A stretch of 20,122 bases of DNA from IMG/VR virus record IMGVR_UViG_3300030060_004663, positions 1 through 20,122 of that record, one strand, 5' to 3'. Shown here in pieces: positions 1-20,122 of the stretch. The notes below the pieces were generated by a model that was given only the letters and a program-made list of their open reading frames with translations, was not told the origin of the DNA and did no database searches. Position numbers and translations under genes: made by a program. Numbering within the stretch: position 1 is the stretch's first letter; every line of letters begins with the position of its first letter. The DNA is from a virus.

Positions 1-3000
1 TTAGGAATTACTACCGCAGCATATAACAGTGTTACTGGTATAATGACCATTACCACTCCTAGTGCTCATGGATATAAAACAAGTGGTAAGACTAGTGTTG
101 TTATTTTAACTGGATTAGCATTTACATGTGACATAGATGGAGGCACTTCTACTCACTATTATCCTCGTGGACAGGACTTAGCATATAACACTTCTGTTGC
201 AATTGCAGGAACTGCATCAACGACTATTACAGTTGATGTTGGATATGGTGGTCCTTCTGATCAATATACACATAGTTTTGTGGGTGTTGGAACAAGTGCT
301 GTAATTGTTGGTGGTGATTATAATCATCAATTTGTAAGTGCTGCAAGTAGTGCAGTTATTAGTGGTGGTGATTATGAACACACCTTTGTAAGTGTTGGTG
401 TTGGTACGATTACTATTGCAGGTATTGGATCTACGGTTGTTACAGACGCATCATATACTGCTTCGACTGGTGAATTAGTATTGACTATTGCTTCTGGTCA
501 TGATTATACCACTGATGATATGGTAGGCATTGGAACAAGTGCTTTGATATTTACTTGTTCTATGGATAATAATTCAAGTCAAAAAACTTATCCAAGATCT
601 ACTGATCCTATTATTAGTATTGGTAATACTGCAATTACTGCAACTACTGATACTACATTTACTGTCAATGTTGGTGCATCTCCATTAGTGTACTTTGATG
701 TATCTAATGCAACTTATGATGCTAATAGTGGAATTTCTACTCTTACTATTGGTTCTCATTCCTTAACTACATCAACAAGTATTAGATTGGCTACTGATAG
801 TTTGACCTTTAGATGTGCAATGGATGATTATTGTTCCTTACATACGTATCCAAGATCTACCGATCCTGGATTTAGTACTGCTTTAGGAATTACAACAACT
901 ACTGCAGATACAATCAGTATTAATGTAGGTGTTTCTACTATTGTTAAGTATAGTGTAACTGATGCTGATTATAATGCCACAACAGGTATTATGACCATGA
1001 CAATTGGATCTCATACCTTAAAGACTGGTACTAATATTAAGATAGCAACTGAATCTTTAACCTTTACATGTGCTAAGGATGGTAATTCTACTACCCATCG
1101 TTATCCTAGAAAACCAGATCCTACTTATGGTGGAACTCCAGTAACTAAGGTTAATAGCACTACTCAGTTTGAGGTTAATATTGGTATATCTACTGTAGAA
1201 TCTTTCTATGTTGGATTAGGATCTGTCCAAGCAGCAATAATTGCTCCTAGAGCAAATAACAATTCTGCAAGTAAGACTGATCCTGCAGCAAACAGTGCTA
1301 CTGTATTGGATGTTATTGATAGTAAGACATTTATCACAAATACTGGTATATCCACTCTAGCTCACTATTACAATAGAGGTGGAACTTTAGAAAAACCACT
1401 AGATGTTATATTTGATGATCCAGAGTCTTATTCAGATCTTGCTTTAGAATATGCATCTAATTCTTCTGGAATTGGAACTGCTGCAACTATTGATGTGGTA
1501 GTAGGTCAAGGATCAAGTATTGTATCATTTACTGTTCAGGAGACTGGATATGGTTATGGGGATGGAGAAAGTTTAACTGTACCTATAGGAGGCACAACAG
1601 GAATTCCAACAACTTCTGGTTATAAAGAATTCTTACTTGATATTAACGAAACCTTTAGTGATGAATTTACTGGTTGGTCAATTGGTCTTCTTGATATGCT
1701 TGATAACTGGGATGATGATTTTGATGGTTCGACCAAGACATTCCAATTAAGTGATAATGGAGATTTAATTTCTATTAGAGCTGCTAAAGGATCCCAGATC
1801 AATGTTCAGGATATTATTCTTATTTGGATTAATGATATACTACAAGTTCCTGGAAAGTCATATACTTTTAATGGAGGTAGTGTAGTTACCTTTACAGAGG
1901 CTCCTAAGAAGGATGATAAGTCTAAAGTTATTTTCTATAAGGGAAGTGGTGATCAAGACGTTGTTGCTAGAGAAATTATTGAAACAGTTAAGACTGGTGA
2001 TAATTTAACTATTGAAAGTAATTACCCACAAGATTGGTATTTACAAGAAGATAAGAGAATTACTCTTAGTGTTGATTCTACTGATATTGTTAGTACTAAT
2101 GCATATTATGGTCCAGGTAACAGTGCTGACGAAACTTTTGAAAGACCTGTTGTATGGTGTCGTCAAACAGAAGATAAGATTATTAATGAAAAACCTATAG
2201 GAAAGGATAGAGAGTTATATGAACCTCAAATTGCTCCATTTGGATATATCACAAAGACTGTTGGTATTGGATCAACCACAATTTACGTAGATCAATTAAG
2301 ACCTTTATTTAATACACAAAATGAAAGACAAGATACTACTGATCTTGGTTTCCAAAATAAAGTTAAATTCTTTAACCAAGGAGTGAAGGTTGGTGCTGCA
2401 GGAACTGCTATTGTATCTGCTGCAGGTACTATTTCTTCTGTTGACATTACAGACGGGGGTGTGGGTTACACTACTGCTACAGTAAGTTTTGCTTCTACTG
2501 TCGGTGTTGGTACTACTACGCAAGCATTTGGTAATGTAACTATTAGTGCTGCAGGAACTGTAACTGGTATTGCCATTACAAGTCCTGGTGTTGGATATAC
2601 TCATACTAATGTACCTTCTGTTCTTATAAGTCCTCCAACTTATGTTGAGGAAATTAATCAAGTAGGTGCTTATAGTGGAGATCAGGGTGTTATCGTTGGA
2701 TTTGGAACTACTACTATCAGTTCTAAAGATCAAATGATCTTTGATTTCTATATTCCCGAAGATTCATTCTTAAGAGAAGGTGCTATTACAGGAACTGCTG
2801 TTACAATTAGTGGAATTGGAACTAATGATATATTTGTTGTTAGGGGATCTAATGTAGGTAATGCAAGCACTTCAATTACATCTGTAGATTCTGGTTCTAA
2901 TACAGTAGGAATAGGAACATCCTTTATAGATAATGTATATTCTGTAAATACATATGAAATTGTTAATAGACCTTCTTCTGTTAATAGTTCAGGTGTAGGT

Positions 3001-3243
3001 ATAGGAACTACTTATTGTGCTAGAGTATTTGCCACAATTACCAGTGACTTCTCATGGGGAGGTACAGGAATTGAAACTTCTAACTACTATGGTACATATA
3101 GTTGGGGAAGAATTGATTTAACTTCAAGAGCAGGATTAAATTCTTATACTGCATATACTGAAGGTGGAATTGGTGGAATTACTACATCTACAATCGTAGA
3201 AAGAAATGCTCCTCTTAAATTTAAAGAATATAAGGATATATAG
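1..3243 (+). CDS. Large repeat-rich virion/baseplate structural protein, 5' end missing
   Basis: The reading frame is open from base 1 to the TAG at 3241-3243 (1080 residues). The first ATG at base 43 lies in the middle of a repeat unit, so the true start is upstream of the window. The N-terminal third is made of beta-type repeats of about 85 residues with the signature Y..TG..T.TI.SH ... LTFTCAMD ... YPRSTDP. The middle holds a segment reading INDILQVPG with a following YTFNGG (about bases 1828-1875), and a conserved block reading RPVVWCRQTEDKIINE (about 2143-2190), both of which I recognise from cyanophage virion proteins. Two GG.GY modules follow (about 2437-2620). It lies directly upstream of gp8, where T4 has gene 7, so a baseplate wedge or attached fibre role is inferred from position. 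I see no clear sequence match to T4 gp7. The virion role is well supported, the exact location in the particle is not. Confidence 0.8.
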   Translation, partial: LGITTAAYNSVTGIMTITTPSAHGYKTSGKTSVVILTGLAFTCDIDGGTSTHYYPRGQDLAYNTSVAIAGTASTTITVDVGYGGPSDQYTHSFVGVGTSAVIVGGDYNHQFVSAASSAVISGGDYEHTFVSVGVGTITIAGIGSTVVTDASYTASTGELVLTIASGHDYTTDDMVGIGTSALIFTCSMDNNSSQKTYPRSTDPIISIGNTAITATTDTTFTVNVGASPLVYFDVSNATYDANSGISTLTIGSHSLTTSTSIRLATDSLTFRCAMDDYCSLHTYPRSTDPGFSTALGITTTTADTISINVGVSTIVKYSVTDADYNATTGIMTMTIGSHTLKTGTNIKIATESLTFTCAKDGNSTTHRYPRKPDPTYGGTPVTKVNSTTQFEVNIGISTVESFYVGLGSVQAAIIAPRANNNSASKTDPAANSATVLDVIDSKTFITNTGISTLAHYYNRGGTLEKPLDVIFDDPESYSDLALEYASNSSGIGTAATIDVVVGQGSSIVSFTVQETGYGYGDGESLTVPIGGTTGIPTTSGYKEFLLDINETFSDEFTGWSIGLLDMLDNWDDDFDGSTKTFQLSDNGDLISIRAAKGSQINVQDIILIWINDILQVPGKSYTFNGGSVVTFTEAPKKDDKSKVIFYKGSGDQDVVAREIIETVKTGDNLTIESNYPQDWYLQEDKRITLSVDSTDIVSTNAYYGPGNSADETFERPVVWCRQTEDKIINEKPIGKDRELYEPQIAPFGYITKTVGIGSTTIYVDQLRPLFNTQNERQDTTDLGFQNKVKFFNQGVKVGAAGTAIVSAAGTISSVDITDGGVGYTTATVSFASTVGVGTTTQAFGNVTISAAGTVTGIAITSPGVGYTHTNVPSVLISPPTYVEEINQVGAYSGDQGVIVGFGTTTISSKDQMIFDFYIPEDSFLREGAITGTAVTISGIGTNDIFVVRGSNVGNASTSITSVDSGSNTVGIGTSFIDNVYSVNTYEIVNRPSSVNSSGVGIGTTYCARVFATITSDFSWGGTGIETSNYYGTYSWGRIDLTSRAGLNSYTAYTEGGIGGITTSTIVERNAPLKFKEYKDI
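10..1200 (+). repeat. Four ~85-residue coding repeats
   Basis: Four related units can be aligned by a conserved Tyr codon at 22, 454, 715 and 970, and by the Leu codon of the L.F.C motif at 115, 544, 802 and 1057. Spacing between the last three is 255-261 bases (85-87 residues). The first unit is about 58 residues longer because it contains a set of short tandem repeats. Each unit has the order Y-x-x-x-TG, T-I-x-S-H, LTFTC, YPR (the first two are the most divergent). The repeats are recognisable only as protein; at DNA level they have diverged. Confidence 0.85.
259..420 (+). repeat. Three 18-residue (54-base) tandem repeats
   Basis: Three consecutive 54-base units (259-312, 313-366, 367-420) encode the pattern (G/D)-x-Y-x-H-x-F-V-x-x-x-x-x-x-x-x-x-(G/A), with the His codon at 271, 325 and 379. 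They form an insertion in the first of the ~85-residue units. The exact 54-base period in a coding frame suggests tandem duplication. Confidence 0.85.
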
Positions 3244-7800: not shown

Positions 7801-10800
7801 GTGCTTATTACGATTCTACTGATACGGGAGATATTACTACAGTAGATTCTTATAAGACTTTTGATTATACAGACGAGATACAGGAAGTTAATGGTCTTGC
7901 CAATACTGATATGATTGACATCCGACCAAGGGTGGCAGATTATACTGTTAGTGAAAGTGCTAGTTCACCTTTAACTTTTGCAGGAAGAACTTTTAATCAG
8001 GCAGGACAAACAGCAACAAATATACTTGCATCAGACGAATCTATAGTTATAGATTTTTCTTACTATTTGGGAAGAATAGATAGAGTTTTCTTAACAAAAG
8101 ATGGTAAGTTCCAAGTTGTTTATGGAAGTCCTGCAGAAGATCCTCAAACACCAGGAGCAATTGAGGAAGGAATAGAAGTTGCTCAAATAACTTTCCCTCC
8201 CTATTTGTATAATGTTAATGATGCTACTATAAATTTCTTAGAATATAAGAGATTTAGAATGTCTGATATCAATAATCTCGAATCACGGATTAGAAATTTA
8301 GAATTCTATACTAGTCTTTCTTTATTAGAAACTAATACTGCTAATTTCTTTGTTCCTGATTCTGATGGATTGAATAGATTTAAATCTGGTTTCTTTGTAG
8401 ATAATTTTGAGACTTTTTCTACTCAAGATAGTAGATTTAAAATTAAAAATAGTATTAATCCCAAAAAGAATGAATTAAGACCAAGACATTATACTAATTC
8501 TGTCGATCTTCAATTTGGTCCTGTTGTCAATACCGATGATACAGCAGATTTGCAATTCAATACTATTACAGGTACTAATATAAGGAGACATAAAGATCTT
8601 ATTACTCTTGATTATTCGGAAGTATCATATATTCTACAACCTTTTGGTTCTAGAACATGCTCTGTAACTCCTTTTATTGTTGCTTATTGGAAAGGAATTC
8701 TTGAGTTAAATCCAGAGTCAGACACTTGGGTTAGCACAGTAAGATTACAACCTCGTATTGTTAATAGAGAAGGTGATTTTGCTGAAACAGTAGCACGTTT
8801 AGCTGCTGAAGAAGGATTTGATGCTCAATCTGGATTGGGACCACAGGTATGGAATTCTTGGCAAGATGTCTGGACAGGACAAAGAAGAAATACTAATAGA
8901 CAACTTGCAACTAGACCACACGTACATCGTACTAGAACTAGTGGAAACTGGAGAATACGTGAAACAATATCACAAGCTCAAGTAGAAGTTGAAGAAACTG
9001 TTAGAAGTAATAGAACTGGTACTCAACAACGTATTATTGAAGATTTTAGTCAAAGAGAATCTCAAGGTGATAGAGTTGTAAGTAGAGATCTTATACCATT
9101 CATGAGAGCTCGTAATATTGAGTTAGTAGGAAAACAGAATAAACCTACTACAAGGTTGTATGCTTTCTTTGATGGGGTAGATGTAACTAAGTATGTAACT
9201 CCAAAATTACTTCAGATAAGTATGACATCTGGTACTTTCCAAGTAGGAGAAACAGTCGTTGCACATGTGCCAAATTCTGGAAATGTTCTTTGGAACTCAG
9301 GTCCAGGAACAAGACCAAGCTTAAGATTTAGAGTAGCACAGTCTAATCATAAAGAGGGACCATATAATGCACCAACTAAAACTTTTGGAGCAAATCCATA
9401 TAATGAATCCCAAACAGTTCCTGTAAGTTACTCAGCTACCTCTACGACTATTAATATAGATACTGGTGCAATTGCGAATCAGATGATTGGTATTTTCAAT
9501 TTTTCTGGTTGGGTTGAACCTAATATGGTGCTTAGAGGTCAATCAAGTGGTGCTCAAGCTACCATTACAGAAGTAAAACTTATTAGTGATATTAGTGGTT
9601 TCTTTGGAGGAACTTTCTTTATTCCACCACAGAGAACTAATTTCCCATCATTTACTGCTGGTACAAAACAATTTAAATTAACTAGTGATGCTGATAATAC
9701 TCCAACTCTAGAAGCTACTTCTACTTCAGTGGATAATTTCACATCTCAAGGATTCCTTGACACTATTCAGGAAACTATTATTGCAACCAGAAATGCAAGA
9801 GTTATAACTCAGGAAATTAATGACACTAGAGAGACAAGTAGAACTGTTGGTACTGAGTGGATAACTACTGCTGTTAATAGCACTCAAAGGTGGCGATGGA
9901 GAAATAATGGTGACCCATTAGCACAGTCATTTAGTGTTGATGAAACTGAAGGAGTTTTTGTAACTAAATTAGATGTTTTCTTTGCTACAAAAGATGATAC
10001 AAATCTTCCTGTTATATTAACAATCAGAACAATGTCTAATGGTACTCCGACAGAGACAGTTGTTCCTTTAAGTGAATCTGTATTAGATCCAGAAGATGTT
10101 ACGGTATCTAATGATGGATCTGTAGCAACTACTTTTGAGTTTAAAGCTCCTGTTTATTTGGAAGGTGGTATGGAGTATGCTCTTGTAATGCTTTCCAATT
10201 CTGCTAAGTATAGTGTTTATATTTCACGAGTTGGTGATAATGATTTAATTGATAATACTTATATTGCAAACCAACCATTATTAGGAAGTCTTTTTAAATC
10301 TCAAAATGCTTCTACATGGGATCCAAGTCAGTGGGAAGATCTTAAGTTTAATCTTTATAGAGCAGATTTTGTCGAATCTGGTACATTAGAACTTTATAGC
10401 CCAGAATTAAGTGAAACTAATAACCAAATACCTATTTTACAATCTAACCCATTATCAATAACATCAAGAGGTTTAAGAGTTGGTTTAGGCACTACGGTAG
10501 GTGATTCTGGATATGTAATTGGTAATGAATTTTATCAATTAGGAACTAATGCAACTGGTACTTTAGCAGGGGTTGCAGGAACAGCTACTGGTGCTTTAAA
10601 TATAATTAATGCTGGTATTGGTTATACTCCTATATCTGGTGGATATACATTTGCTGGTGTGGTATTAGACACTATAACTGGTAATGGTCGTGGAGCTACA
10701 GCTGATATTTCAGTCTCTAATGGAGTTGCTGTAGGAGCAACTATTAGTGGAGTTGGAACAGGATATCAAGTTGGTGATGTGTTGGGTATTACAACCGTTG

Positions 10801-12386
10801 GATTAAATTCTCTTGGAAGAAATGCTAGATTCTCTGTAGTTTCTATTGGTCAAACCACTGAACTTATATTGGAAAATGTTCAAGGTAATTTTGTAGTAGG
10901 ATCAGCAAATACTATGTACTATTATACTAGTGCAGGTATTTCTTCTGAATTAAATTCGAGTCAAGGTGGCGATGTCCAAGTTGGATCTGTTAATGTTATA
11001 AATGATGGTTTGCATATTAAAGTAAATCATCAAAATCATGGAATGTATTTCAGTAAAAATAATGTAAAGATTTCTGGTGTTGAGGGTGATAATAAACCTA
11101 CTAAATTAACTGCAGCATATAATTCAGGAGATACTGGAGCTATATCTGTTCAGGATTCTACTCTTTTCTCTACTTTTGAAAATGTAGGAGTCGGAACTAC
11201 TAATTATGGTTATCTGAAGATAGGAGAAGAAATCATCTCTTATAGTTCTGTTACTGGTAATTTAATTGGAGTAACAACTAGAGGAATTGATGGTAGTTCT
11301 AAGTTGTCTATAAATTATTCAGTAGGAACTCCTGTTTCTAAGTATGAATTGGGAGGAGTGAATTTATTACGTATTAATAAAACTCATGGATTATCCACTA
11401 CAACTGCTGCATATCCTAATGCTACTAGTTTGGATGTTTCCGATGCTATCCAGTATGATTCTTATAACATTAAGTTAGATATGTCTCAAGGTGGTACTAC
11501 TAGAAATACTGATGTAGGAAATCCTGCTTTGTATTTAAATTCCACTAAATCTACTGGTGGAAGTATGATTAAAGCAACTCAAAATATGCCATATGAAGTT
11601 ATTACGCCTATGATTCAGAATGTGACTTTACCTACTACTTCATTAACAGGTCAAGTAGTTACTGTTACATCTAAGAGTATTGATGGTAATGAAATACCTT
11701 ATATTCAGACTGAAGTACAAGATCTTACCTTGAATACTACCAATTATTTGGATAGTCCTCGATTGATTGCTTCTAAAGTTAATGAGGATACATTCCTAAC
11801 AAATATTGAGGGTAATAAATCATTAAATATGACATTGTTCTTGAATAGTACAAAATCAAATGTGAGTCCTGTAATTGACGGTCAAAGAAAGAACATTATA
11901 TTAACTTCTAATAGAGTTAATAAGGCAATTAAAAATTATGCTACTGATAGCAGAGTTAATGATGCAACTAATGATCCAACTGCTTGTCAATATATTTCTA
12001 AAGAAATGATATTAGAAAATAATTCTACTTCATTAAAAGTGTTATTGTCTGCCCATCTTGATGTTGATGCTGATATACGGGTTCTATATGCCATCAATAA
12101 TAAAGAAGGTATGGATCCAATCTTTACTCCTTTCCCAGGATATAAGAATTTAAATTATAAAGGTGAGGTTATATCACAAGCAGATAATGATGGTCTTTCT
12201 GATAAATTGATTACTAAATCCAACTCTTCTGGATTTGATAATGAATCTTTAGAATTTAAAGAATATACATTTAGTGTTGATGATTTACCATCATTTAAAT
12301 CATATAGAATTAAGATTCTTTTGACTTCAACCAATCAAGTTTATGTTCCTAGAATCAAAGACTTGAGAGTGATGGCACTAGCATAA
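4845..12386 (+). CDS. Giant virion structural protein, DUF4815 family
   Basis: This protein of 2513 residues takes up 37% of the window. Residues 12-66 (YFDDFDPANDYYRVLFKPGYPVQARELT, then LQ.QIEKFG, ending VIPG) are the hallmark of the DUF4815 family found in T4-like marine phages, continuing to a YVRGYEIE motif at about 360. A lysine-rich stretch is at 786-805. Other blocks I recognise from cyanophage structural proteins are SYYLGRIDRVFL (about 1070), RDLIPFMRARNIELVGK (about 1415), DPLAQSFSVDETEGVFVTKLDVFF (about 1690) and the C-terminal YRIKILLTS...VPRIKDLRVMALA. Short beta modules are inserted in several places: G.TSG type near 97, 493, 887 and 1561, GG.GY type near 1916 and 1967, and an IGEEIISYSS module near 2126. 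Its place between gp8 and the neck genes suggests a baseplate-periphery or fibre-network protein; its exact role is not known to me. There is no clear Shine-Dalgarno sequence. The gene probably depends on transcription through gp8. Confidence 0.87.
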   Translation: MPQLTNLNVSPYFDDFDPANDYYRVLFKPGYPVQARELTGLQSMLQNQIEKFGQHFFKEGAKVIPGNTSFTTNYTCIQLNNEFQGVPVAAYVDQLVGSTITGQTSGVTATVDKVLSSEDSENNNLTLYVNYRGSNTSNNQTETFSDAENLTSSVIISSGLLGNTTISIGAPFASTVAQNAAGKGSAFHVEEGVYFVRGQFVNVSQETLILDQYTNTPSYKIGFNILEEVITADLDETLNDNSQGFNNYSAPGADRLKITLNLFKKELTDIDDSAFVELAKVEDGVLRSKKQNTEYNTFADELARRTYEESGDYYVKPFDVSVVDSLNDNTGNSGIFQANQFTYTGGTPSKDLALYNISEGKAYVRGYEIETLSSTYLDVPKPRTTSTLTDQAIEYKTGPALKLNRVYGSPTIGIGNTYTVSLRDQRTNTTQPGSANLPGKEIGQARVYDIALETGSYSANNANLNEWDVSLYDIQTITELSINESPTEALSAGTFVKGNNSGATGFLRYAVSAGVALTVTETSGNFIKNEALIFNGITNGRVAVAVTEYGVSNIKSLWGTNNGVVGINTFCADVIQTTKFSVGVATISPASGAGTISTIRSTNPLFPGTGELVRINDLVQYSDISSADRDPIMARVTGVGATTITVTEVTTVPGVVNGSLPTSALEVSDLKIVSTDFESSDEVSLFTELPKHDVSNVDLTDASISIRKVYDGETIALNRVANTLTAGENETFLPFDPERYAVFRSDGTTEELTSDRLVFSNGMTELDILNLSTATDSGNVSIVTTLKKIKPVAKKKIKKRVNSIIVDKSKLEGSGIGSTSLNNGLTYGSYPYGTRVEDETISLNVPDIIQMHGIFETTTVDGTPSAPSMDLTSINSSSTTTTELIVGEYLTGQTSNAIACVAEKSDSDTIAYIYKNDNVFVEGETVIFAESNVQAVISELFESDLNISNEYFFTNGQKDTFYDYGTVTRKPDFDAPTKAIKIYFESAYYDSTDTGDITTVDSYKTFDYTDEIQEVNGLANTDMIDIRPRVADYTVSESASSPLTFAGRTFNQAGQTATNILASDESIVIDFSYYLGRIDRVFLTKDGKFQVVYGSPAEDPQTPGAIEEGIEVAQITFPPYLYNVNDATINFLEYKRFRMSDINNLESRIRNLEFYTSLSLLETNTANFFVPDSDGLNRFKSGFFVDNFETFSTQDSRFKIKNSINPKKNELRPRHYTNSVDLQFGPVVNTDDTADLQFNTITGTNIRRHKDLITLDYSEVSYILQPFGSRTCSVTPFIVAYWKGILELNPESDTWVSTVRLQPRIVNREGDFAETVARLAAEEGFDAQSGLGPQVWNSWQDVWTGQRRNTNRQLATRPHVHRTRTSGNWRIRETISQAQVEVEETVRSNRTGTQQRIIEDFSQRESQGDRVVSRDLIPFMRARNIELVGKQNKPTTRLYAFFDGVDVTKYVTPKLLQISMTSGTFQVGETVVAHVPNSGNVLWNSGPGTRPSLRFRVAQSNHKEGPYNAPTKTFGANPYNESQTVPVSYSATSTTINIDTGAIANQMIGIFNFSGWVEPNMVLRGQSSGAQATITEVKLISDISGFFGGTFFIPPQRTNFPSFTAGTKQFKLTSDADNTPTLEATSTSVDNFTSQGFLDTIQETIIATRNARVITQEINDTRETSRTVGTEWITTAVNSTQRWRWRNNGDPLAQSFSVDETEGVFVTKLDVFFATKDDTNLPVILTIRTMSNGTPTETVVPLSESVLDPEDVTVSNDGSVATTFEFKAPVYLEGGMEYALVMLSNSAKYSVYISRVGDNDLIDNTYIANQPLLGSLFKSQNASTWDPSQWEDLKFNLYRADFVESGTLELYSPELSETNNQIPILQSNPLSITSRGLRVGLGTTVGDSGYVIGNEFYQLGTNATGTLAGVAGTATGALNIINAGIGYTPISGGYTFAGVVLDTITGNGRGATADISVSNGVAVGATISGVGTGYQVGDVLGITTVGLNSLGRNARFSVVSIGQTTELILENVQGNFVVGSANTMYYYTSAGISSELNSSQGGDVQVGSVNVINDGLHIKVNHQNHGMYFSKNNVKISGVEGDNKPTKLTAAYNSGDTGAISVQDSTLFSTFENVGVGTTNYGYLKIGEEIISYSSVTGNLIGVTTRGIDGSSKLSINYSVGTPVSKYELGGVNLLRINKTHGLSTTTAAYPNATSLDVSDAIQYDSYNIKLDMSQGGTTRNTDVGNPALYLNSTKSTGGSMIKATQNMPYEVITPMIQNVTLPTTSLTGQVVTVTSKSIDGNEIPYIQTEVQDLTLNTTNYLDSPRLIASKVNEDTFLTNIEGNKSLNMTLFLNSTKSNVSPVIDGQRKNIILTSNRVNKAIKNYATDSRVNDATNDPTACQYISKEMILENNSTSLKVLLSAHLDVDADIRVLYAINNKEGMDPIFTPFPGYKNLNYKGEVISQADNDGLSDKLITKSNSSGFDNESLEFKEYTFSVDDLPSFKSYRIKILLTSTNQVYVPRIKDLRVMALA

Positions 12387-12613
12387 TGGATTATCATGGA
12401 GTTACTGGTCATAGCGATCTATTAAGAGATGCTGATACCAAAGCAATAGTTAATGCAAATCATTCAGATTATTTAAAATACGTAGCACGAAGAGATGCTA
12501 GAAAAAAAGAATCTGAAAAAACTGTTAATATTGAAGAAGATCTTGCTAATTTAAAAAGTGAAATGAATGAGATCAAATCTTTACTCAAGGAGTTAGTTTC
12601 AAATGTCCACTAA
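12386..12613 (+). CDS. Small coiled-coil protein of unknown function
   Basis: This 75-residue protein has a start codon that shares its first A with the last base of the preceding TAA (TAATG), a classic arrangement for translational coupling. The N-terminal half reads MDYHGVTGHSDLLRDADTKA and is followed by a charged region rich in Lys and Arg. Residues 49-73 have a heptad pattern (EEDLANLKSEMNEIKSLLKELV) predicting a short coiled coil. No signal peptide or membrane segment is visible. Similar small proteins occur beside the DUF4815 gene in cyanophages as far as I recall. A minor virion protein or an assembly partner of its large neighbour is possible, but that is inference from position alone. 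Confidence 0.75.
   Translation: MDYHGVTGHSDLLRDADTKAIVNANHSDYLKYVARRDARKKESEKTVNIEEDLANLKSEMNEIKSLLKELVSNVH
12587..12592 (+). promoter_or_regulatory. Strong Shine-Dalgarno sequence AAGGAG
   Basis: AAGGAG is ten bases from the ATG at 12603 and lies inside the preceding small gene. It is the best ribosome binding site in the window; most other genes here have weak or no such site. It settles the start of the 214-residue protein. Confidence 0.8.
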
Positions 12614-13247
12614 GAATTTTACATTCGATCCCGAATCAGGAGTTCCAAATGCTGCAGATTTGGTGGTTTATGGTGGTGCTAACTTTAAGAATACATTTAA
12701 TGTAACCAATACATCAAATGAAAAATATGATTTAACTGGATGGAGTGGATCGGCACAATTACAAAAGAGTGCTGGTATAGGAGCGACTACAATTCCTGCT
12801 GATACTTTCACAGTAGGATTCACTAGTGCGTATGATGGTCAATTTTATATTTCATTAGGATCAACACAAACAAGAGATCTTCCTGCTGGAAGATATGAAT
12901 ATAATGTTTTAATGACTCCATCTAAAGACAGTGTTGCTGTTTTGGATACTTCTATTGCTGTGGGTGCTACTGCAGGAATTGGAACCACTGAGTTTACAAT
13001 TAATAAAATTGCAGGAGTAGCAATTGGTGATTCTGTATCTGTTGGTGCAGCAATTACTACAATATCTGTGGTGGGAATTGCAACTACTATAGCAAATAGA
13101 ATTCAAATTGGAGCAGCACATACCTCACCTTTAGAAATATTACCAGGAACAGGGGTTACATTTACTAGAGTAGGAAGTGCCACTACAATTTATAGTATGG
13201 TAAACGGAAATATACTTGTATATGCTGGCATTGCATCAGCACCATAA
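12603..13247 (+). CDS. Beta-rich virion structural protein
   Basis: This 214-residue protein begins 11 bases before the previous gene ends and has a full Shine-Dalgarno sequence, AAGGAG at 12587-12592, ten bases from the ATG. Residues 5-105 (FDPESGVPNAADLVVYGGANFKNT..., GWSGSAQLQKSAG, RDLPAGRYEYNVLMT) have the pattern of the small Ig-like domain seen in phage baseplate upper proteins (BppU N-terminal type). Residues about 112-190 are a repetitive A/G/I/T-rich segment that seems to interrupt the last strands, because the protein resumes with TTIYSMVNGNILVYAG. It lies between the DUF4815 gene and gp13, so a tail or baseplate surface component is likely. The fold assignment is by pattern only. 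Confidence 0.75.
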   Translation: MSTKNFTFDPESGVPNAADLVVYGGANFKNTFNVTNTSNEKYDLTGWSGSAQLQKSAGIGATTIPADTFTVGFTSAYDGQFYISLGSTQTRDLPAGRYEYNVLMTPSKDSVAVLDTSIAVGATAGIGTTEFTINKIAGVAIGDSVSVGAAITTISVVGIATTIANRIQIGAAHTSPLEILPGTGVTFTRVGSATTIYSMVNGNILVYAGIASAP

Positions 13248-13250
13248 ATA
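13243..13250 (+). promoter_or_regulatory. Putative T4-type late promoter before gp13
   Basis: CATAAATA has one mismatch to TATAAATA. The stop codon TAA of the 214-residue protein (13245-13247) forms positions 3-5 of the element. Twenty-one bases separate it from the gp13 ATG, and the Shine-Dalgarno sequence AAAAGGA lies between at 13254-13260. Confidence 0.55.
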
Positions 13251-13271
13251 CCTAAAAGGATAATTGTATAA

Positions 13272-14117
13272 ATGGCTAAACCAGCATCTAGATCACAATT
13301 TATCGATTACTGTAAGAGGCAGTTAGGTGCTCCTGTATTGGAGATTAACGTTGCTGATGAGCAGATAGAAGATATTGTAGATGATGCTATCCAATACTTC
13401 CAAGAGAGGCACTTTGACGGTGTTGCTCAAACATATATGAAGTATAAAGTAACACAAGACGATATCGATAGAGGAAAAGGACCAGGTTCAACAGGAGTAG
13501 TAGGATTAACAACGACTAGTGCTACTTCTGATATCGCAGGTTCTTCCGTACAATTTGATTATACAGAAAATAGTAATTATCTAGCAATACCTCCTTCGAT
13601 TATTGGAGTAACAAAAATATTTCATTTTGATGGATCGAATACTATTACTAATAACATGTTCAGTGTTAAGTATCAGTTATTCCTGAATGACATTTATTAT
13701 TGGGGAGCAACTGAACTTTTAACATATGCGATGACAAAAACATATCTTGAAGATATTAATTTCCTTTTGACAACAGAAAAACAAATAAGATTTAATCAAA
13801 GACAAGATAGATTATATATTGATATTGATTGGAGTTCTATATCAGAAGGTGATTATTTAATTCTAGATTGTTTTAGGGCAATGGATCCTAATGATTATAA
13901 TAGAGTATGGAATGATTCATTTTTAAAACCATATGCTGTTGCCTTAATAAAACGGCAATGGGGTCAAAATTTAATTAAGTTTGCAGGAGTAAAACTTCCT
14001 GGCGGAACTGAGTTAAATGGAAGACAGATGTATGATGACGCTGAGAAAGAATTGACTAGAATTAGAGAAATTATGTCCAACACATATGAACTACCTCCAC
14101 TAGATATGATAGGTTAA
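13272..14117 (+). CDS. 13: Neck protein gp13 (T4-like)
   Basis: In T4, gp13 and gp14 complete the head after packaging and form the neck to which the tail attaches. The 281-residue length is close to T4 gp13 (309). Recognisable features are the N-terminus MAKPASRSQFIDYCKRQLGAPVL, the acidic NVADEQIEDIVDDAIQYFQERHFDG segment (residues about 25-50), and a C-terminal half with KRQWGQNLIKFAGVKLPGG (about 228-246) and NGRQMYDDAEKEL. The domain sequence matches the cyanophage gp13 family end to end with no obvious insertion, unlike its neighbours. The start is set by the conserved N-terminus and an AAAAGGA site 11 bases upstream. gp14 follows after four bases, consistent with the two being made together. 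Confidence 0.93.
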   Translation: MAKPASRSQFIDYCKRQLGAPVLEINVADEQIEDIVDDAIQYFQERHFDGVAQTYMKYKVTQDDIDRGKGPGSTGVVGLTTTSATSDIAGSSVQFDYTENSNYLAIPPSIIGVTKIFHFDGSNTITNNMFSVKYQLFLNDIYYWGATELLTYAMTKTYLEDINFLLTTEKQIRFNQRQDRLYIDIDWSSISEGDYLILDCFRAMDPNDYNRVWNDSFLKPYAVALIKRQWGQNLIKFAGVKLPGGTELNGRQMYDDAEKELTRIREIMSNTYELPPLDMIG

Positions 14118-14121
14118 GATC

Positions 14122-15591
14122 ATGGCACTTAATCCATTTTTTCAGCAAGGTGCTAGATCTGAACAGAATTTAGTTCAAGATTTAATCAACGAACAGTTGA
14201 GGATGTATGGTGTTGAAGTGCATTATATGCCTAGAAAATATATAAAGGAAAATACAGTAATTAAAGAAGTAGTAGCATCTAAATTTGACGATGCTTATCC
14301 ATTGGAAGCATATGTAGATAGTTTTGATGGGTATGGTGATAATCCAGTTTTATTATCTAAGTTTGGTATTGAACAAACTAATGAATTGACTCTTACTATT
14401 TCTAAGGAAAGATGGGAGACATATATTGAACCTTTAATGGAGAATGAGGATAATATTCAATTAGCAACTCGTCCTAAGGAAGGTGATTTAGTATATTTTC
14501 CTTTAGGTGATAGATTATTTGAAATCAAGTTTGTAGAACATGAAAAACCTTTTTATCAGTTGATGAAAACTTATGTTTATACTCTCAAGTGTGAACTATT
14601 CCGCTATGAAGATGAGGTTATTGATACTGGAGTTGAAGAGATTGATGATACTTTAATAGGAGAAGATTATACTGGTACTACTGGTGAAGATGGTGGTATT
14701 TCTACTCTTATCGGACCTACTCAAACACTTACCCTTGTTGGTACAGGTATAACTGCTACTGCTATAACAGGTATCGTGACAGAGGGTGGTATTAGGTATA
14801 TTGATATTAGTAATCGTGGTGGTGGATATTTGGGACAACCAACCGTTGCCATATCATCTGCTCCTTCTGGGGGTGTGACAGGTATTGCTACTGTAAGGTT
14901 AATAGGAGGAATTGTGGCATGTACTGATAATGTTAATCCTGCTACTAGATCTGTCCAACATGCAGATTTAGAAAATGTTGGTTCTGGATATACAGTTGCT
15001 CCTAAGATTGCCTTTATTGGTGGTGGGGGAAGTGGTGCTGCTGCTACCTCTGTGATTGGTGATAATGTTATTGGTATAGTAACTCTTACAAGTTCGGACG
15101 GATATGTTGGTGGTGTTGGATATACTACTAACCCAACAGTTACCTTTAGTAATGAAATATTTAAGACAGGTGTTACTACTGTTTCTGCTGCTGCAACTGC
15201 TGTTGTAAGTTCTGCAGGTACTATTACTGCTATTAATATAACCAATGCTGGTCTTGGATATAGCACTGCTCCTACACTAACTATTGCTGACCCTGCTCTT
15301 GATAATACTGGTAATTATAAGTTTAATGAGATTGTCACTGGACAGACAAGTGGAACTACTGCAAGAGTCAGAACATGGAATGCTACAACTAATGTAATAG
15401 AATTAGCATCAGTAGATGGAACATGGATAAGGGGTGAAAAATTATTAGGTGAGACCTCAGGGGCTACTCATTCAGTTAGAGAGATTGATCTTGATCCTAC
15501 GGATGATGGATTTGCAGACAATTTAGAAATAGAAACTCAAGCAGATTCTATCTTAGACTTTACTGAACAGAACCCATTTGGCACTCCATAA
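14122..15591 (+). CDS. 14: Neck protein gp14 (T4-like), with beta-module expansion
   Basis: gp14 is the partner of gp13 in the neck. Residues 1-165 are the recognisable core: MALNPFFQQGARSEQNLVQDL, EVHYMPRKYIKENTVIKEV, YPLEAYVDSFDGYG, the SKFGIEQTNELTLTISKERW segment, and the YVYTLKCELFRYEDEVIDTG end. T4 gp14 has 256 residues but this protein has 489. The extra length is a run of at least four GG.GY beta modules near residues 222, 280, 326 and 369, then two G.TSG modules near 407 and 443. The last 30 residues (DNLEIETQADSILDFTEQNPFG) look like the normal gp14 C-terminus, so the modules appear to be inserted before it. The last codons overlap the -35 element of the putative promoter for the next gene. 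Confidence 0.92.
   Translation: MALNPFFQQGARSEQNLVQDLINEQLRMYGVEVHYMPRKYIKENTVIKEVVASKFDDAYPLEAYVDSFDGYGDNPVLLSKFGIEQTNELTLTISKERWETYIEPLMENEDNIQLATRPKEGDLVYFPLGDRLFEIKFVEHEKPFYQLMKTYVYTLKCELFRYEDEVIDTGVEEIDDTLIGEDYTGTTGEDGGISTLIGPTQTLTLVGTGITATAITGIVTEGGIRYIDISNRGGGYLGQPTVAISSAPSGGVTGIATVRLIGGIVACTDNVNPATRSVQHADLENVGSGYTVAPKIAFIGGGGSGAAATSVIGDNVIGIVTLTSSDGYVGGVGYTTNPTVTFSNEIFKTGVTTVSAAATAVVSSAGTITAINITNAGLGYSTAPTLTIADPALDNTGNYKFNEIVTGQTSGTTARVRTWNATTNVIELASVDGTWIRGEKLLGETSGATHSVREIDLDPTDDGFADNLEIETQADSILDFTEQNPFGTP
14780..15480 (+). repeat. Beta-module repeat block inside gp14
   Basis: Four protein-level repeats of the type (I/V)-x-I-x-N-x-G-x-G-Y-x-x-x-P-(T/K)-(V/I/L) occur at about 14785, 14960, 15100 and 15227, followed by two G.TSG.(T/A) modules at 15340 and 15448. 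The same two module types occur in other virion genes of this window. They are not detectable as simple DNA repeats. Confidence 0.75.
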
Positions 15592-15606
15592 TATTTGTGT
15601 TATAAT
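15578..15606 (+). promoter_or_regulatory. Putative host sigma70 promoter, near-consensus
   Basis: TTGGCA (15578-15583, five of six matches to TTGACA) is followed by a 17-base spacer and a perfect TATAAT at 15601-15606. The TG of an extended -10 element is at 15598-15599. The expected start of transcription, about seven bases after the -10, falls at or next to the ATG at 15613, so the mRNA would have little or no leader. It precedes the DUF2997/DUF1257 pair only. This is a prediction from sequence; in AT-rich DNA a TATAAT alone would mean little, but the combination with spacing, -35 and extended -10 is uncommon. Confidence 0.6.
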
Positions 15607-15612
15607 TATATT

Positions 15613-15840
15613 ATGACAAAAAAACAAACACTTAAATTTACTATTAGACAGGATGGTCACGTAACTGAAGAAGTTATTGGAGCTGCTTCTGCAGAGTGTT
15701 TAGAACTTACTGAACAAATAGATAATAAATTGGGAGTTTTAGAAACTCGTCAATTTAAACCTGAATTTTATCAACCTGCTATAGTTAACGAACATGTCTC
15801 ACTTCAGCACAATAAAAACCAAAATAAAGAACAAACCTGA
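15613..15840 (+). CDS. DUF2997 family protein
   Basis: This small 75-residue protein has the DUF2997 pattern: a short beta hairpin (LKFTIRQDGHVTEEVIG, residues 7-23), a helix with C-LELTEQIDNKLG, and the closing VLETRQFKPEFYQ. The family occurs in cyanobacteria and other bacteria, usually next to DUF1257, and its biochemical role is unknown to me. I chose the ATG at 15613 over an in-frame TTG at 15595 because the family begins close to the hairpin and the TTG lies upstream of the predicted -10. No Shine-Dalgarno sequence precedes it. The C-terminal tail (QHNKNQNKEQT) is coded in the stretch where the next gene begins in another frame. It is not a virion protein in any obvious way and is probably host-derived. 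Confidence 0.82.
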   Translation: MTKKQTLKFTIRQDGHVTEEVIGAASAECLELTEQIDNKLGVLETRQFKPEFYQPAIVNEHVSLQHNKNQNKEQT

Positions 15841-16174
15841 ACTGATAGAAGCACTTCAACTTCTTCAATATGAAGTTCAGGAGAATCAAGAGTTAATCAA
15901 TCCTATTGATCATCAGCATGAAAAAGTAAAAGTAGATATTTCTATAGGAGAGGATATTGGGTTTCGTTTAAATAATAACGGTGAGTATGAATTAGTAGCA
16001 GATATACAAACTTGGAAGGATCCAGTTCCTCCAAAAAGGTTTGTTGAGAAGATTACCCAACAGTATGCTCGTATGACAGTTCATAATCAAATTAAAGAAA
16101 TGGGATTTAAAGTAGAAGAGGAATGGGAGATGGATGATAATTCTATTGAATTAGTGGTTACTCGTTGGGTATAA
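15794..16174 (+). CDS. ycf35: DUF1257 / Ycf35 family protein
   Basis: This 126-residue protein is full length for the Ycf35 family, which is encoded in cyanobacteria and in some algal plastids. The diagnostic N-terminus MSHFSTIKTKI is followed by a helix (ELIEALQLLQYEV), a beta section with GFRLNNNGEYELVADIQTW, and the C-terminal helix and strand FVEKITQQYARMTVHNQIKEMGF...LVVTRWV. Its function is not established. The gene overlaps the DUF2997 gene by 47 bases in another frame, which suggests tight co-expression, and no Shine-Dalgarno sequence is visible. The pair interrupts the neck gene order between gp14 and gp15, and its stop codon is built into the late promoter of gp15. A host-derived auxiliary role during infection is likely; whether photosynthetic, proteostatic or other cannot be told. 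Confidence 0.88.
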   Translation: MSHFSTIKTKIKNKPELIEALQLLQYEVQENQELINPIDHQHEKVKVDISIGEDIGFRLNNNGEYELVADIQTWKDPVPPKRFVEKITQQYARMTVHNQIKEMGFKVEEEWEMDDNSIELVVTRWV

Positions 16175-16177
16175 ATA
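16170..16177 (+). promoter_or_regulatory. T4-type late promoter before gp15
   Basis: This is a perfect match to TATAAATA. The TAA stop of the Ycf35 gene (16172-16174) forms positions 3-5. Twenty-one bases separate it from the gp15 ATG, and TAGGA at 16186-16190 may serve as ribosome binding site. Confidence 0.7.
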
Positions 16178-16198
16178 TATTATACTAGGACTATAACG

Positions 16199-17236
16199 AT
16201 GTTTGAGTATTTTTATAACGAAATTCTGAGAAGAACTATCATATCATTTGGTACTCTTTTTAATGGAATTACAGTAAAGCAAGAGGGATCTCAGATAAGA
16301 GTTCCTTTAGCATACGGTCCTACCCAAAAGTTTTTAGCACGTTTAAATCAAACACCAGATTTAAATAAAGCAACGGCAATTACTTTGCCTAGAATGTCTT
16401 TTGAGTTTACTGGACTTACTTATGATCCTTCTAGAAAAGTAACTACAACACAACAGTTTACAGTAAAAGATCCTAATGATGGAACTGAGACTAAGAAGTC
16501 ATATATGCCAGTTCCTTATAATATGCAATTTGAACTTGCTATTATGTGTAAGTTAAATGATGATGCGTTACAAATCACAGAACAGATACTTCCATATTTC
16601 CAACCAGCATATAATGTTACTGTTACGTTAGTAGATAATATTAAAGAAAAAAGAGATATTCCAATTGTATTGGAAAATATTACAATGCAGGATGATTATG
16701 AAGGAGACTTTGAGAGTAGAAGAGTTCTTCTTTATACTTTAAGATTTACTGCAAAGACCTACATGTTTGGTCCATCTGCTACTGCTACTGGTGACCTTAT
16801 TAGGAGTGCTAGAGTTAGTTACCTTTCTGGTACAGATACTACCAATACGCAAAGAGATCTTACATACAGAGTTACTCCAAGAGCAACCAAGAGTTATGCT
16901 GGTCCTATAACTACAACTTTAGATGAAGATGTTGATCTAACAGAAGTGGAAATTAAAGTTGTTTCTACTTCTAATATCTTCTTAGATACTTCATCAACTC
17001 CTAAACCAACTTATTGTTATATTGATGAAGAAGAGATGAAGATAACAACAGTAAATGCTAATTCTATTATTGTTGAAAGAGCACAAGATAATACTCTTGC
17101 TGCTTCTCATGTTAAGGGATCTGCCTTAAGAGTTATCAATCCAATAACATCTTCAACAGACACTACTGTTACTTATGATGATAATGTACTTATTGAAGAT
17201 GGCGATAACTTTGGATTTGATGGTGAGATCTCATGA
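16199..17236 (+). CDS. 15: Tail completion and sheath stabiliser gp15 (T4-like)
   Basis: T4 gp15 forms a hexameric ring at the top of the tail that stabilises the sheath and contacts the neck. The N-terminus MFEYFYNEILRRTIISFGTLFNGI, the LPRMSFEFTGLTYDPSRK segment (about residues 60-78), the MPVPYNMQFELAIMCKLNDDALQITEQILPYFQP-type core (102-135), and ENITMQDDYEGDFESRR (about 158-174) are typical of gp15. The protein has 345 residues against 272 in T4. The extra length is at the C-terminus (from about residue 235) and contains a segment reading CYIDEEEMKIT...IIVERAQDNT...HVKGS, which resembles a module in the DUF4815 protein. It has its own late promoter and overlaps gp16 by four bases (ATGA). 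Confidence 0.92.
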   Translation: MFEYFYNEILRRTIISFGTLFNGITVKQEGSQIRVPLAYGPTQKFLARLNQTPDLNKATAITLPRMSFEFTGLTYDPSRKVTTTQQFTVKDPNDGTETKKSYMPVPYNMQFELAIMCKLNDDALQITEQILPYFQPAYNVTVTLVDNIKEKRDIPIVLENITMQDDYEGDFESRRVLLYTLRFTAKTYMFGPSATATGDLIRSARVSYLSGTDTTNTQRDLTYRVTPRATKSYAGPITTTLDEDVDLTEVEIKVVSTSNIFLDTSSTPKPTYCYIDEEEMKITTVNANSIIVERAQDNTLAASHVKGSALRVINPITSSTDTTVTYDDNVLIEDGDNFGFDGEIS

Positions 17237-17652
17237 CCGATAAATTAGATAAAACTTTTAATATTACTCCTGAAGTAGTACCAGAAGAAAAACCAAAAGT
17301 TATTAAAAAGGAAAAACCCGATAGACTTACTAAAGATGATATTACAAGAGATTATGAATATACAAGAGGTAATCTCTATAGTATAATAGAAAAGGGTCAG
17401 GAAGCAATTGATGGTATTCTTGAGATTGCTCAAGAAAGTGAAATGCCCAGAGCATACGAAGTTGCTGGTCAACTTATAAAAAGTGTTTCTGATGCTACTG
17501 ATAAATTGATTGATCTTCAGAAAAAACTGAAAGATGTTAATGAAGAGCAAGTAGTTAAGGGACCATCCACAGTTAACAATTCACTTTTTGTTGGATCTAC
17601 TGCAGATCTTGCAAAATTGATTAAGAGCGAGACTCTTAAAAAAACTGAATAA
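17233..17652 (+). CDS. 16: Terminase small subunit gp16 (T4-like)
   Basis: The small terminase regulates the large subunit and helps start packaging of phage DNA into the prohead. This 139-residue protein matches the cyanophage gp16 type: a charged Lys/Glu/Pro-rich N-terminus (residues 1-33), the central DYEYTRGNLYSIIEKGQEAI segment (about 36-55), a helical AYEVAGQLIKSVSDATDKLIDLQKKLKDV region able to form the coiled coil of the oligomer (about 76-104), and a C-terminal NNSLFVGSTADLAKLIK motif. T4 gp16 has 164 residues. The start codon overlaps the gp15 stop (ATGA). Gene 17 does not follow directly: the 746-residue fibre gene comes next. Confidence 0.88.
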   Translation: MTDKLDKTFNITPEVVPEEKPKVIKKEKPDRLTKDDITRDYEYTRGNLYSIIEKGQEAIDGILEIAQESEMPRAYEVAGQLIKSVSDATDKLIDLQKKLKDVNEEQVVKGPSTVNNSLFVGSTADLAKLIKSETLKKTE

Positions 17653-17655
17653 ATA
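17648..17655 (+). promoter_or_regulatory. Putative T4-type late promoter before the coiled-coil gene
   Basis: AATAAATA has one mismatch to TATAAATA, and the gp16 stop TAA (17650-17652) forms positions 3-5. Twenty-five bases separate it from the GTG start codon at 17681. Confidence 0.5.
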
Positions 17656-17680
17656 TAGTTATAGATGGAGATAAAATAGA

Positions 17681-19921
17681 GTGCCACTCAAAAAGCCGTC
17701 AGAATTTTATAATAAAAATCCTAATTCTTCTTTAGATGAAATTAGGGAAAATGTTACTCCCCAAAAAGTGGAGAAAATTTCTGAAGCTTTTGATTCTTTT
17801 AAGACCAATTTTGACCATATTCAATCTCTTACTGAGTTTACTAATACTTTTGATACTTTTAAAAATAATATAGAAAAGGTAGATAATTTATCAGAAAGTG
17901 TATCTGATATTCAAGATAGTATTCAAGATCTAATAAAGAAAGAAGATCTTGATGATGCAATGACTGCACAACTTCTTTTTGTAGAGGAGTCTATAAGAAA
18001 CGTTCAAGATAAAGTAAAAACTTTAAACTCTAAAAGTGTTTTTGCTATAAAAGAAGAGTTTTCTTCTTTATCAGAAACTGTTTATAATTTTATAGATGAA
18101 GAAGTACCTTCTTACCAAAAATTAATTGTAGATTCTGAGACAAGGGTTGATAGTAGATTTTTAAATTTTAAAAAAGATATTACATCTAAAGTAGAAGATG
18201 TTCATAAAGAAATTAATTCAAATCTTTCCCATATTACAGAAAGTATTGAATCTATTAATGAGGAAAATCTTTCATCTGTAAAAGAAGATGTTAAAGGTAT
18301 TCGTGGAAAAGTTGAATCTCTTCTTGAAAAAGTATTACCAAAGTATAAAAAGTTTTTTGCAGAGACAGAGGTAAGAACAGAGGAAAAGATTGCTGTTGTA
18401 GAAGAAACTGCAAAAGAGATTGAAGAGAAATATGAATCTCAAATTAAAGAAATTACAGAAAATTTTGATCAATTTGTTCATAATGAAATTCCTAAGTATA
18501 AAAAACTTTTAGTAGATTCTAAATTAAAGACGGAAGAAGAAGTAAAGGATATATCTAAAAGTTTAGATGAACAAGTTTCTAAGATTAATAAAAATGTTGT
18601 TAATCTTCAACAACGAGTTAATAATAAAGAAATAGAGATTGATGATGTTCTTTTAGAAAAGACTAATACAATTGATAAATTGATTAATAAATCTAAAGAT
18701 TTGTCAAGAATATATGATGATCTTTCTAGAGATTTTAAAGAAAAAGAAGTTCAATATGAAAATGCTCTTGATGATTTTTCTAAAAAGATTAATACTATGG
18801 AAGAAAGTCTCACAGATAATATTTGTGAACTTCAAGAAAACTTAGATACAAGCACTTCTAAGTATTATTCTGAGATGAAAAATGCGGTAGTTCCTGCCGT
18901 TGTTAATTTTGAGCAAAAATTATCCAGTCAACTTAAAGATTTAAATATCAATTTTGCAGTTAATGAAAAGCATATTGATAATTTAAAAAAAGAATTTCAA
19001 AATCTTGTAGAAGATTTAAAAGTTCCTGTAATTAAAAAAGATTGGAATATATTAGAAGAAAAAAGTGAAAAACTCAATGCTAAAATTGATAGATTAGAAA
19101 AAGTTTTAGAAGAATTTAATGAAAAAAAGGTAGGGACTTTAGAACAAGATTTAAGAGAAGGTCTTTTAAACATACCTCCTGATGTAGATAATTCTGATCC
19201 TCTTACTCCAATAGGTCAAAAGTATGTAACCTTTGATAAATTAGCAGAACATTACAGATTATTTGTCAATAGAGTTCAACAACAAATCGCTACTCTTGGA
19301 GGTGGTGGTGAAGTCTTCCTTGCTAGAATGGAGGATGTTGATGTTGGAGCTGGTATTGCAACTGATGGGTTTGTCTTAGCATGGGATAAAGATCTTCAAT
19401 TATTCACTCCTTCTGCAGGAGGTTCTGCAGGTGCAGGTGGAACATGGGGTTCTAATTCAGTAGGTGTTAGTACTACAAGGTATGTTGGTATTAATACATC
19501 TTCTGCTAAAGAAGAGTTTCCATTATATGTTGGTCCAACAGGATTAGCTGGTACAACAATTGTCGCAAAGTTTGATGGAGATATTTCTGTCGCAGGAACA
19601 ATCTTTAAAGAAAATGTAAAGAATGTAGATTCTATTGGTCTTGTTACTGCTAGAACAGGAGTAGATGTTGGATATAATTTTGAAGATGGAACGGGTGTTG
19701 GTATTACTATGAAAGCAAGTGGTAATGCTGTATTTGCTGGTGTAGTAACTGCTGCTCATATGTTCTATCCACCAGTTATAACAACTGTACAAAGAGATGC
19801 ACTCACAGTAAACGCAGGTGCTCTTATCTTTAATACTACTAGTACCCAATTAGAAATTTATAATGGAACCACTTGGGTAGGTGTAGGTGCTGTTAATAAT
19901 CTCACTATCTCTAACCTATAA
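17681..19921 (+). CDS. Long coiled-coil fibre protein, possible neck whisker analogue
   Basis: This 746-residue protein starts with GTG, preceded by TGGAG at 17666-17670; no in-frame ATG fits better. Residues 1-30 (MPLKKPSEFYNKNPNSSLDEI) are a short non-helical head. Residues about 30-510 are almost entirely heptad-like with Ile, Leu and Val spacing and many Lys and Glu, giving a very long segmented coiled coil. It is broken by three related kinks with P-(S/K)-Y-(Q/K)-K at prolines 143, 220 and 271. The C-terminal part is beta and glycine rich: GGGGE at 540-544, a FDGDISVAGTIFKENVKNVD segment typical of marine phage fibres (about 629-648), and a terminal QRDALTVNAGALIFN...YNGTTW domain (about 705-735). 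The architecture resembles a trimeric fibre with a C-terminal folding domain. T4 fibritin (wac) is also a segmented coiled coil coded next to neck genes, but I see no direct sequence similarity. Assignment as a whisker is inference; it could be another neck or tail fibre. Confidence 0.8.
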   Translation: MPLKKPSEFYNKNPNSSLDEIRENVTPQKVEKISEAFDSFKTNFDHIQSLTEFTNTFDTFKNNIEKVDNLSESVSDIQDSIQDLIKKEDLDDAMTAQLLFVEESIRNVQDKVKTLNSKSVFAIKEEFSSLSETVYNFIDEEVPSYQKLIVDSETRVDSRFLNFKKDITSKVEDVHKEINSNLSHITESIESINEENLSSVKEDVKGIRGKVESLLEKVLPKYKKFFAETEVRTEEKIAVVEETAKEIEEKYESQIKEITENFDQFVHNEIPKYKKLLVDSKLKTEEEVKDISKSLDEQVSKINKNVVNLQQRVNNKEIEIDDVLLEKTNTIDKLINKSKDLSRIYDDLSRDFKEKEVQYENALDDFSKKINTMEESLTDNICELQENLDTSTSKYYSEMKNAVVPAVVNFEQKLSSQLKDLNINFAVNEKHIDNLKKEFQNLVEDLKVPVIKKDWNILEEKSEKLNAKIDRLEKVLEEFNEKKVGTLEQDLREGLLNIPPDVDNSDPLTPIGQKYVTFDKLAEHYRLFVNRVQQQIATLGGGGEVFLARMEDVDVGAGIATDGFVLAWDKDLQLFTPSAGGSAGAGGTWGSNSVGVSTTRYVGINTSSAKEEFPLYVGPTGLAGTTIVAKFDGDISVAGTIFKENVKNVDSIGLVTARTGVDVGYNFEDGTGVGITMKASGNAVFAGVVTAAHMFYPPVITTVQRDALTVNAGALIFNTTSTQLEIYNGTTWVGVGAVNNLTISNL

Positions 19922-19924
19922 ATA
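19917..19924 (+). promoter_or_regulatory. T4-type late promoter before the terminal gene
   Basis: This is a perfect TATAAATA containing the TAA stop of the fibre gene (19919-19921) as positions 3-5. Twenty-three bases separate it from the ATG at 19948. Confidence 0.7.
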
Positions 19925-19947
19925 AAAGATAGGACATATAAAATTAC

Positions 19948-20122
19948 ATGAAAACTTGTAAGAGTGGACAGTATTATTGCACTAAAGATAAAAAGTGCAA
20001 ACCTATTCCTGGTGGATATCACGTAGGTCGTGGTGGATGGCTAGAAAAAGATGATGATTCTAAAAAGAAAAATGGTAATGGCAACGGCAACGGAAGTTCT
20101 CACGGAAATGGGAATGGCTCGA
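19948..20122 (+). CDS. Small Cys-containing NG-repeat protein, 3' end missing
   Basis: The frame is open from the ATG at 19948 to the window end (58 residues visible). The N-terminus MKTCKSGQYYCTKDKKCKPI has cysteines at 4, 11 and 17, followed by IPGGYHVGRGGWLEKDDD and then a run of alternating Asn and Gly (NGNGNG, with SSHGNGNGN). AGGA at 19931-19934 may be a ribosome binding site, and a perfect late promoter precedes the gene, so it is expected to be made late with the virion proteins. I recall similar short proteins with a YYC...KCKPIP-like head and glycine-asparagine tail in cyanophages, without known function. The head could be a small disulphide or metal-held knot; the rest of the gene is needed to judge. 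Confidence 0.72.
   Translation, partial: MKTCKSGQYYCTKDKKCKPIPGGYHVGRGGWLEKDDDSKKKNGNGNGNGSSHGNGNGS

Follow-up and report, generated by a model that had tools for sequence, protein, structure and literature searches.

Between the neck protein gene gp14 and the tail sheath stabiliser gene gp15 of a T4-like cyanophage, an accessory pair of genes encoding DUF2997 and DUF1257 is preceded by what is well supported, from comparison of related junctions, as a promoter of the host type. The stretch analysed, called the window here, is the whole of a 20,122-base record of this marine cyanobacterial virus. In the explanation that we favor, the pair would have been inserted between gp14 and gp15 and would carry a sigma70-type extended -10 promoter, TGnTATAAT, that is most likely read by host RNA polymerase carrying the primary sigma factor. 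The hexamer TTGG[C/T]A, encoded 17-18 nt upstream by the gp14 C-terminus, would assist this polymerase. The pair would be transcribed in the early or middle phase, ahead of the gp55-dependent late transcription of its virion neighbors, and gp15 would rely on a late octamer of its own, located behind the pair. In the subclade of the window, the transcript probably begins at or beside the A of the ATG and would be translated without a leader. We hold this explanation as a whole to be probable, at roughly three chances in four; the use of the promoter, its timing, the exact start site and leaderless translation are what we infer from sequence comparison.

The probable promoter element and its setting

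Matches to Pfam and PHROG families give the gene order of the window as baseplate and fibre genes, gp13, gp14, the DUF2997/DUF1257 pair, gp15 and gp16 (Table 1). The gp14 stop codon occupies 15589-15591 and is separated from the DUF2997 ATG by 21 nt. An alternative DUF2997 start at TTG 15595 was rejected because the homologues begin at the ATG. The gp14 product has a long C-terminal extension that matches baseplate and fibre protein repeats (phrog_701, phrog_708, phrog_5342), and the first open reading frame of the window (1-3243) contains repeated YPR..DP-like segments. No paper on the phage DUF2997/DUF1257 pair was found in a literature search.

Table 1. Genes and sequence elements at the gp14-gp15 junction of the window
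Feature	Position	Strand	Basis or remark
gp14, neck protein (head closure), upstream neighbor	14122..15591	+	Pfam PF11649, phrog_460
-35-like hexamer TTGGCA	15578..15583	+	within gp14 C-terminal codons, Phe-Gly-Thr of NPFGTP
Degenerate remnant CATAATATT of late octamer CATAAATA	15588..15596	+	junction alignment; the octamer of relatives overlaps the gp14 stop codon
Extended -10 TGtTATAAT (TATAAT 15601-15606)	15598..15606	+	kept as TG[ACT]TATAAT in relatives
Six-base gap TATATT, -10 to ATG	15607..15612	+	sequence; transcription start predicted at or beside 15613
DUF2997 gene, 75 aa	15613..15840	+	Pfam PF11211 (E=1.1e-14), phrog_23133; start conserved among homologues
DUF1257/Ycf35-like gene, 126 aa, overlaps DUF2997	15794..16174	+	Pfam PF06868 (E=5.3e-24), phrog_20456
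Late octamer TATAAATA of gp15	16170..16177	+	overlaps DUF1257 stop codon, 21 nt before gp15
gp15, tail sheath stabiliser, downstream neighbor	16199..17236	+	Pfam PF16724, phrog_227

The site consists of two hexamers that are close to TTGACA and TATAAT and lie within the 16-18 nt separation of sigma70-type promoters. Their spacer, CTCCATAATATTTGTGT, is 17 nt long and ends in TGT, with the TG at 15598-15599. Only the -10 is intergenic, since the -35 hexamer sits within the gp14 coding sequence. In a scan of positions 10,000-20,122, TTGGCA-N17-TATAAT, which also has an extended TG, was the sole 11/12 match among 60 promoter-like sites; shuffled sequences gave a mean of 50.9 promoter-like sites, and nearly all were weak. 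Sites that combine TATAAT, the TG and, at 16-18 nt, a -35 matching in five or more of its six bases are expected 0.05 times per window in order-2 Markov shuffles of the whole window. The starts at 3285, 13272 (gp13), 16199 (gp15) and 17681 are each preceded, at 20-25 nt, by a T4-late octamer NATAAATA. When the same octamer was sought before the pair in the window, none was found, and no T4-type late promoter precedes the pair there. The first-pass annotation had described TTGGCA, a 17-base spacer, TG and TATAAT ahead of the pair and T4-late-type elements at the surrounding virion genes, and both descriptions proved correct.

Conservation at related junctions and occurrence of the element elsewhere

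Relatives of the pair and of gp15 were gathered from IMG/VR and from phage records. The element TG[ACT]TATAAT was present in all 15 distinct gp14-pair-gp15 junctions, which represent few independent lineages (about three), and in none of 62 related junctions that lack the pair, except for one copy within the gp14 coding sequence. With so few lineages, P values computed from these counts exaggerate the strength of the association. Shared recent ancestry is insufficient to account for this conservation, because identity to the window at third positions in the last 44 codons of gp14 has fallen to 41% (L369) and 36% (L371). Over 19 loci, only 7 of these 44 third positions are invariant, as against all eight fixed bases of TG[ACT]TATAAT. 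These comparisons indicate that the -10 is conserved as a regulatory signal.

The -35 has a different history. TTGGCA encodes part of NPFGTP, the conserved C-terminus of gp14. Phages with neither the pair nor such a -10 end gp14 in identical or similar bases, so that the conservation of TTGGCA is ruled out as independent evidence of a promoter. Of the 15 junctions that hold the pair, 7 have TTGGTA, a weaker -35, and 11 have a spacer of 18 nt. TTT serves as the Phe codon wherever the pair is present and in 31 of 60 junctions without it, a difference that depends too strongly on ancestry to count. However, the distance from -35 to -10 is fixed at 17-18 nt while the other flank of the -10, up to the ATG, ranges from 6 to 27 bases, and this constancy suggests that the -35 is in use at pair-bearing junctions. 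We regard it as borrowed from gp14, not evolved for the promoter. The first-pass annotation had proposed to test whether both hexamers are conserved above their flanks; this holds for the -10, and at the -35 any such conservation is confounded with that of the gp14 coding sequence. Its wider proposal of a host-type promoter for the pair loses TTGGCA as an independent argument and keeps the sigma70-type form, the conserved -10, the distinctness from late octamers and the association with early/middle-type genes that is described below.

In cyanophage isolates the same element is concentrated near gene starts. Counting with mechanically assigned ORF starts, 16 of 34 TGnTATAAT copies in P-SSM2 lie within 60 bases of an ORF start (2.3 expected), as do 8 of 17 in P-SSM7 (1.1 expected). 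The genes behind them in these two phages include gp32, uvsX, mazG, the gp55 genes of P-SSM2 and P-SSM7, cobS and the heads of the talC and pstS clusters, of which gp32 and the P-SSM2 gp55 were recognised by sequence only. Across ten cyanophage genomes, and with ORF starts assigned in the same mechanical way, the distance from element to start peaks at 20-25 bases (36 observed at 17-28 bases, 1.5 expected), and a minor group lies at 5-7 nt (5 observed, 0.39 expected). From these gene classes and distances it follows that TGnTATAAT marks early/middle-type genes and that leaderless-type spacing is a real minority layout. Early and middle are treated here as one class because the auxiliary metabolic genes of P-HM2 belong to the middle cluster (PMC5082946). 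Early timing of the pair itself is plausible on these grounds.

The pair also occurs near the gp43 DNA polymerase gene, before a large-terminase-like gene, near psbA and hli genes, beside sugar-nucleotide genes and at other sites, the neighbors in unannotated contigs having been identified from their sequences. This variety of positions suggests frequent movement of an accessory unit. All 15 gp14-gp15 copies have a promoter score of at least 11, as against none of the 89 copies that lie less than 10 bases behind another gene. Of the 29 copies elsewhere that stand 20 bases or more from the preceding gene, eight reach this score, six of them with a full TTGACA-N17-TATAAT. Each of these eight promoters is placed within a terminator hairpin or directly behind it, the hairpin overlapping the -35, and the hairpins of six representatives were folded; the perfect promoters with the -35 inside the hairpin stand before DUF2997 in L377, L378, L381, L383, L421 and L432. 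A fused late and sigma70 element, NATAAATATGCTATAAT, lies just before DUF2997 in L028, L070, L100, L104, L106, L108, L394 and L411, where it follows a glycine-rich gene; two or more genome contexts are represented. As a motif general to cyanophages such a fusion was rejected: ATAAATA-N0-8-TATAAT is absent from P-SSM2, P-SSM7 and S-SM2 and occurs twice in Bellamy. The exact fused 16-mer has many matches in IMG/VR, which may come from unrelated AT-rich phages. Further copies have a late octamer alone or no element, and because some copies carry the late octamer only (L046, L072, the L112-L130 group and P-SSM2), the host-type promoter is not universal for the pair. The pair thus seems to have been furnished repeatedly, and not always, with host-type promoters. 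Its several positions and the promoters of some copies would suit a moron-like accessory unit, and the copies with a late octamer alone or no element would not.

Transcript start and alternative readings

With six bases between TATAAT and ATG, position +7 from the -10 falls on the A of the start codon, as expected of a leaderless mRNA. The same 6-nt distance is found in six distinct junctions of the window's subclade, with two different sequences. The remaining relatives have distances of 17-27 nt, and to judge from the sequences the 6-nt form appears to derive from a deletion in the leader. At another genome position, the P-SSM7 copy of the pair has TGGACA-N17-TGaTACAAT-N5-ATG, a spacing that is an independent parallel to that of the window's subclade. 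The annotated start of this P-SSM7 gene (PSSM7_222, DUF2997; NC_015290, 168,914) lies 15 bases upstream of the homologous ATG, inside the -10-like element, and is probably mis-annotated. In Prochlorococcus MED4, 6-8% of primary start sites are reported to lie within 10 nt of a point taken here to be the start codon, and the same source regards leaderless mRNAs as likely and Shine-Dalgarno use as weak (PMC5607370); a leaderless mRNA of the pair should therefore be translatable. Leaderless transcription and translation of the pair are thus plausible within the window's subclade, and the leaderless start proposed by the first-pass annotation becomes a subclade-specific feature, backed by the six-base gap and by the P-SSM7 parallel.

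Other candidate leaderless genes were observed in isolates. PSSM2_156 (P-SSM2 NC_006883, 134,595-134,612, adjoining gp45) and PSSM7_079 (P-SSM7 NC_015290, 46,137-46,153) have TTGACT/TTGACA, an extended -10 and 5-6 nt to the ATG. TTGACG-N17-TGaTATAAT stands one base before an ORF start in S-SM2 (NC_015279, about 115,724) and in Bellamy (NC_047838, about 131,435), where translation or transcription may actually begin farther in. A further reading, conceivable but on balance unlikely, is that selection has favored leaderless expression from strong host-type promoters for the pair and a few other cyanophage genes. This mode would have originated independently in P-SSM7 and in the window's subclade, would supply an early protein without a ribosome binding site and, at the junction of the window, would have turned gp14 codons into a -35. 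A real promoter might instead produce a short leader, or a start inside the gene through start-site slippage or a downstream start codon. Start sites scatter 6-8 nt from a -10 and the relatives have leaders, but the protein start is conserved at ATG 15613, six bases place +7 on its A and the spacing in P-SSM7 is similar. We consider this outcome somewhat unlikely.

The late elements around the junction bear on how separately the pair is expressed. Phages devoid of the pair usually have C[AC]TAAATA, which appears to be the gp15 late promoter, overlapping the gp14 stop. In 8 of the 15 pair-bearing junctions the late octamer is retained, overlapping the gp14 stop, and since it lies seven bases upstream of TATAAT, early-type and late elements overlap there. 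The octamer has been lost from L001, L002, L005, L007, L369, L371 and the window, which has no overlapping promoter of this kind. These observations allow a reading in which a sigma70 -10 and a gp55-type late octamer together give middle-like or continuous expression, the window being a lineage minus the late half. The fused element of the eight contigs that carry the pair elsewhere agrees with it, and overlapping early/late promoters have been proposed for RB49 and S-PM2 middle genes (PMC2984593). However, the octamer is degraded in the window and lost in the six loci just named, and as the octamer at the gp14 stop is the ancestral gp15 octamer it may be a mere relic. We hold this reading to be possible but less likely than not. 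Late transcripts may also run into the pair from gp14 or from the promoter upstream of gp14, so the pair's expression independently of its neighbors, as first proposed, stands only in part.

It is improbable that the pair lacks a promoter and is simply co-transcribed with gp14 in the late operon, TATAAT being an AT-rich accident. The region is indeed AT-rich, DUF2997 follows gp14 very closely and most copies elsewhere (the 89 loci) closely trail another gene with no promoter, yet the -10 is kept at every pair-bearing junction despite divergent flanks, is missing where the pair is missing and is enriched before early/middle-type genes in isolates. It seems very improbable indeed that gp55 reads TATAAT as a variant of the late promoter. 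The TATAAT resembles TATAAATA and, in most relatives, its distance from the ATG is like that of late octamers; but it is extended by TG and is without the additional A of NATAAATA, it marks replication and accessory genes in isolates, and the window's late genes keep NATAAATA at its usual distance while the TATAAT of the pair stands only six bases from its ATG. The host-read sigma70-type promoter is the explanation that we carry forward.

Relation to known systems and meaning

Host-like sigma70 early promoters are known in the T4-like cyanophages S-PM2 and Syn9, and cyanophages do not have the T4 alt, mod and motA genes for polymerase-modifying proteins (reviewed in PMC2984593). The site in the window resembles these early promoters in its two hexamers of host type, in having no MotA box and in the unmodified host polymerase expected to read it. 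It differs in lying within a late structural module, with the -35 in the neck protein gene and six bases to the ATG. Its relatives, with a late octamer directly upstream of TATAAT, resemble the RB49 and S-PM2 middle promoters (PMC2984593), whereas the window itself does not have the octamer. The PeSL cassettes, in which T4-like phages combine a promoter with a terminator (Arbiol 2010, Comeau 2014, both as cited in PMC4503421), are comparable with the copies of the pair elsewhere in which an early-type promoter is joined to a terminator stem-loop; a terminator scan found no hairpin at the window junction. The leaderless mRNAs of Prochlorococcus (PMC5607370) and of other bacteria likewise have the -10 about 6 nt before the start codon and +1 at or beside the A of the ATG, but the gene in the window belongs to a phage and its transcription start is a predicted one. 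The order DUF2997 then DUF1257/Ycf35 is shared with the cyanobacterial duf2997-ycf35-fed7 genes (Synechocystis cluster g, PMC4284462), although no ferredoxin gene lies beside the pair in the window. The promoter type is therefore one known from cyanophages, and what is unusual is its location, the use of a neighbor's codons and the predicted lack of a leader.

The arrangement would show how accessory genes placed within an operon of late structural genes can keep a timing of their own. The conserved -10 and the protein-coded -35 would give the host polymerase access, and the late octamer downstream of the pair would serve gp15. TGnTATAAT may be used as a sequence signature for early/middle units of uncultured cyanophages, and the pair of the window, together with the isolate cases, provides candidate leaderless phage genes. 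The expression class of the pair is also a clue that its products may act on the host or in replication and not in the virion.
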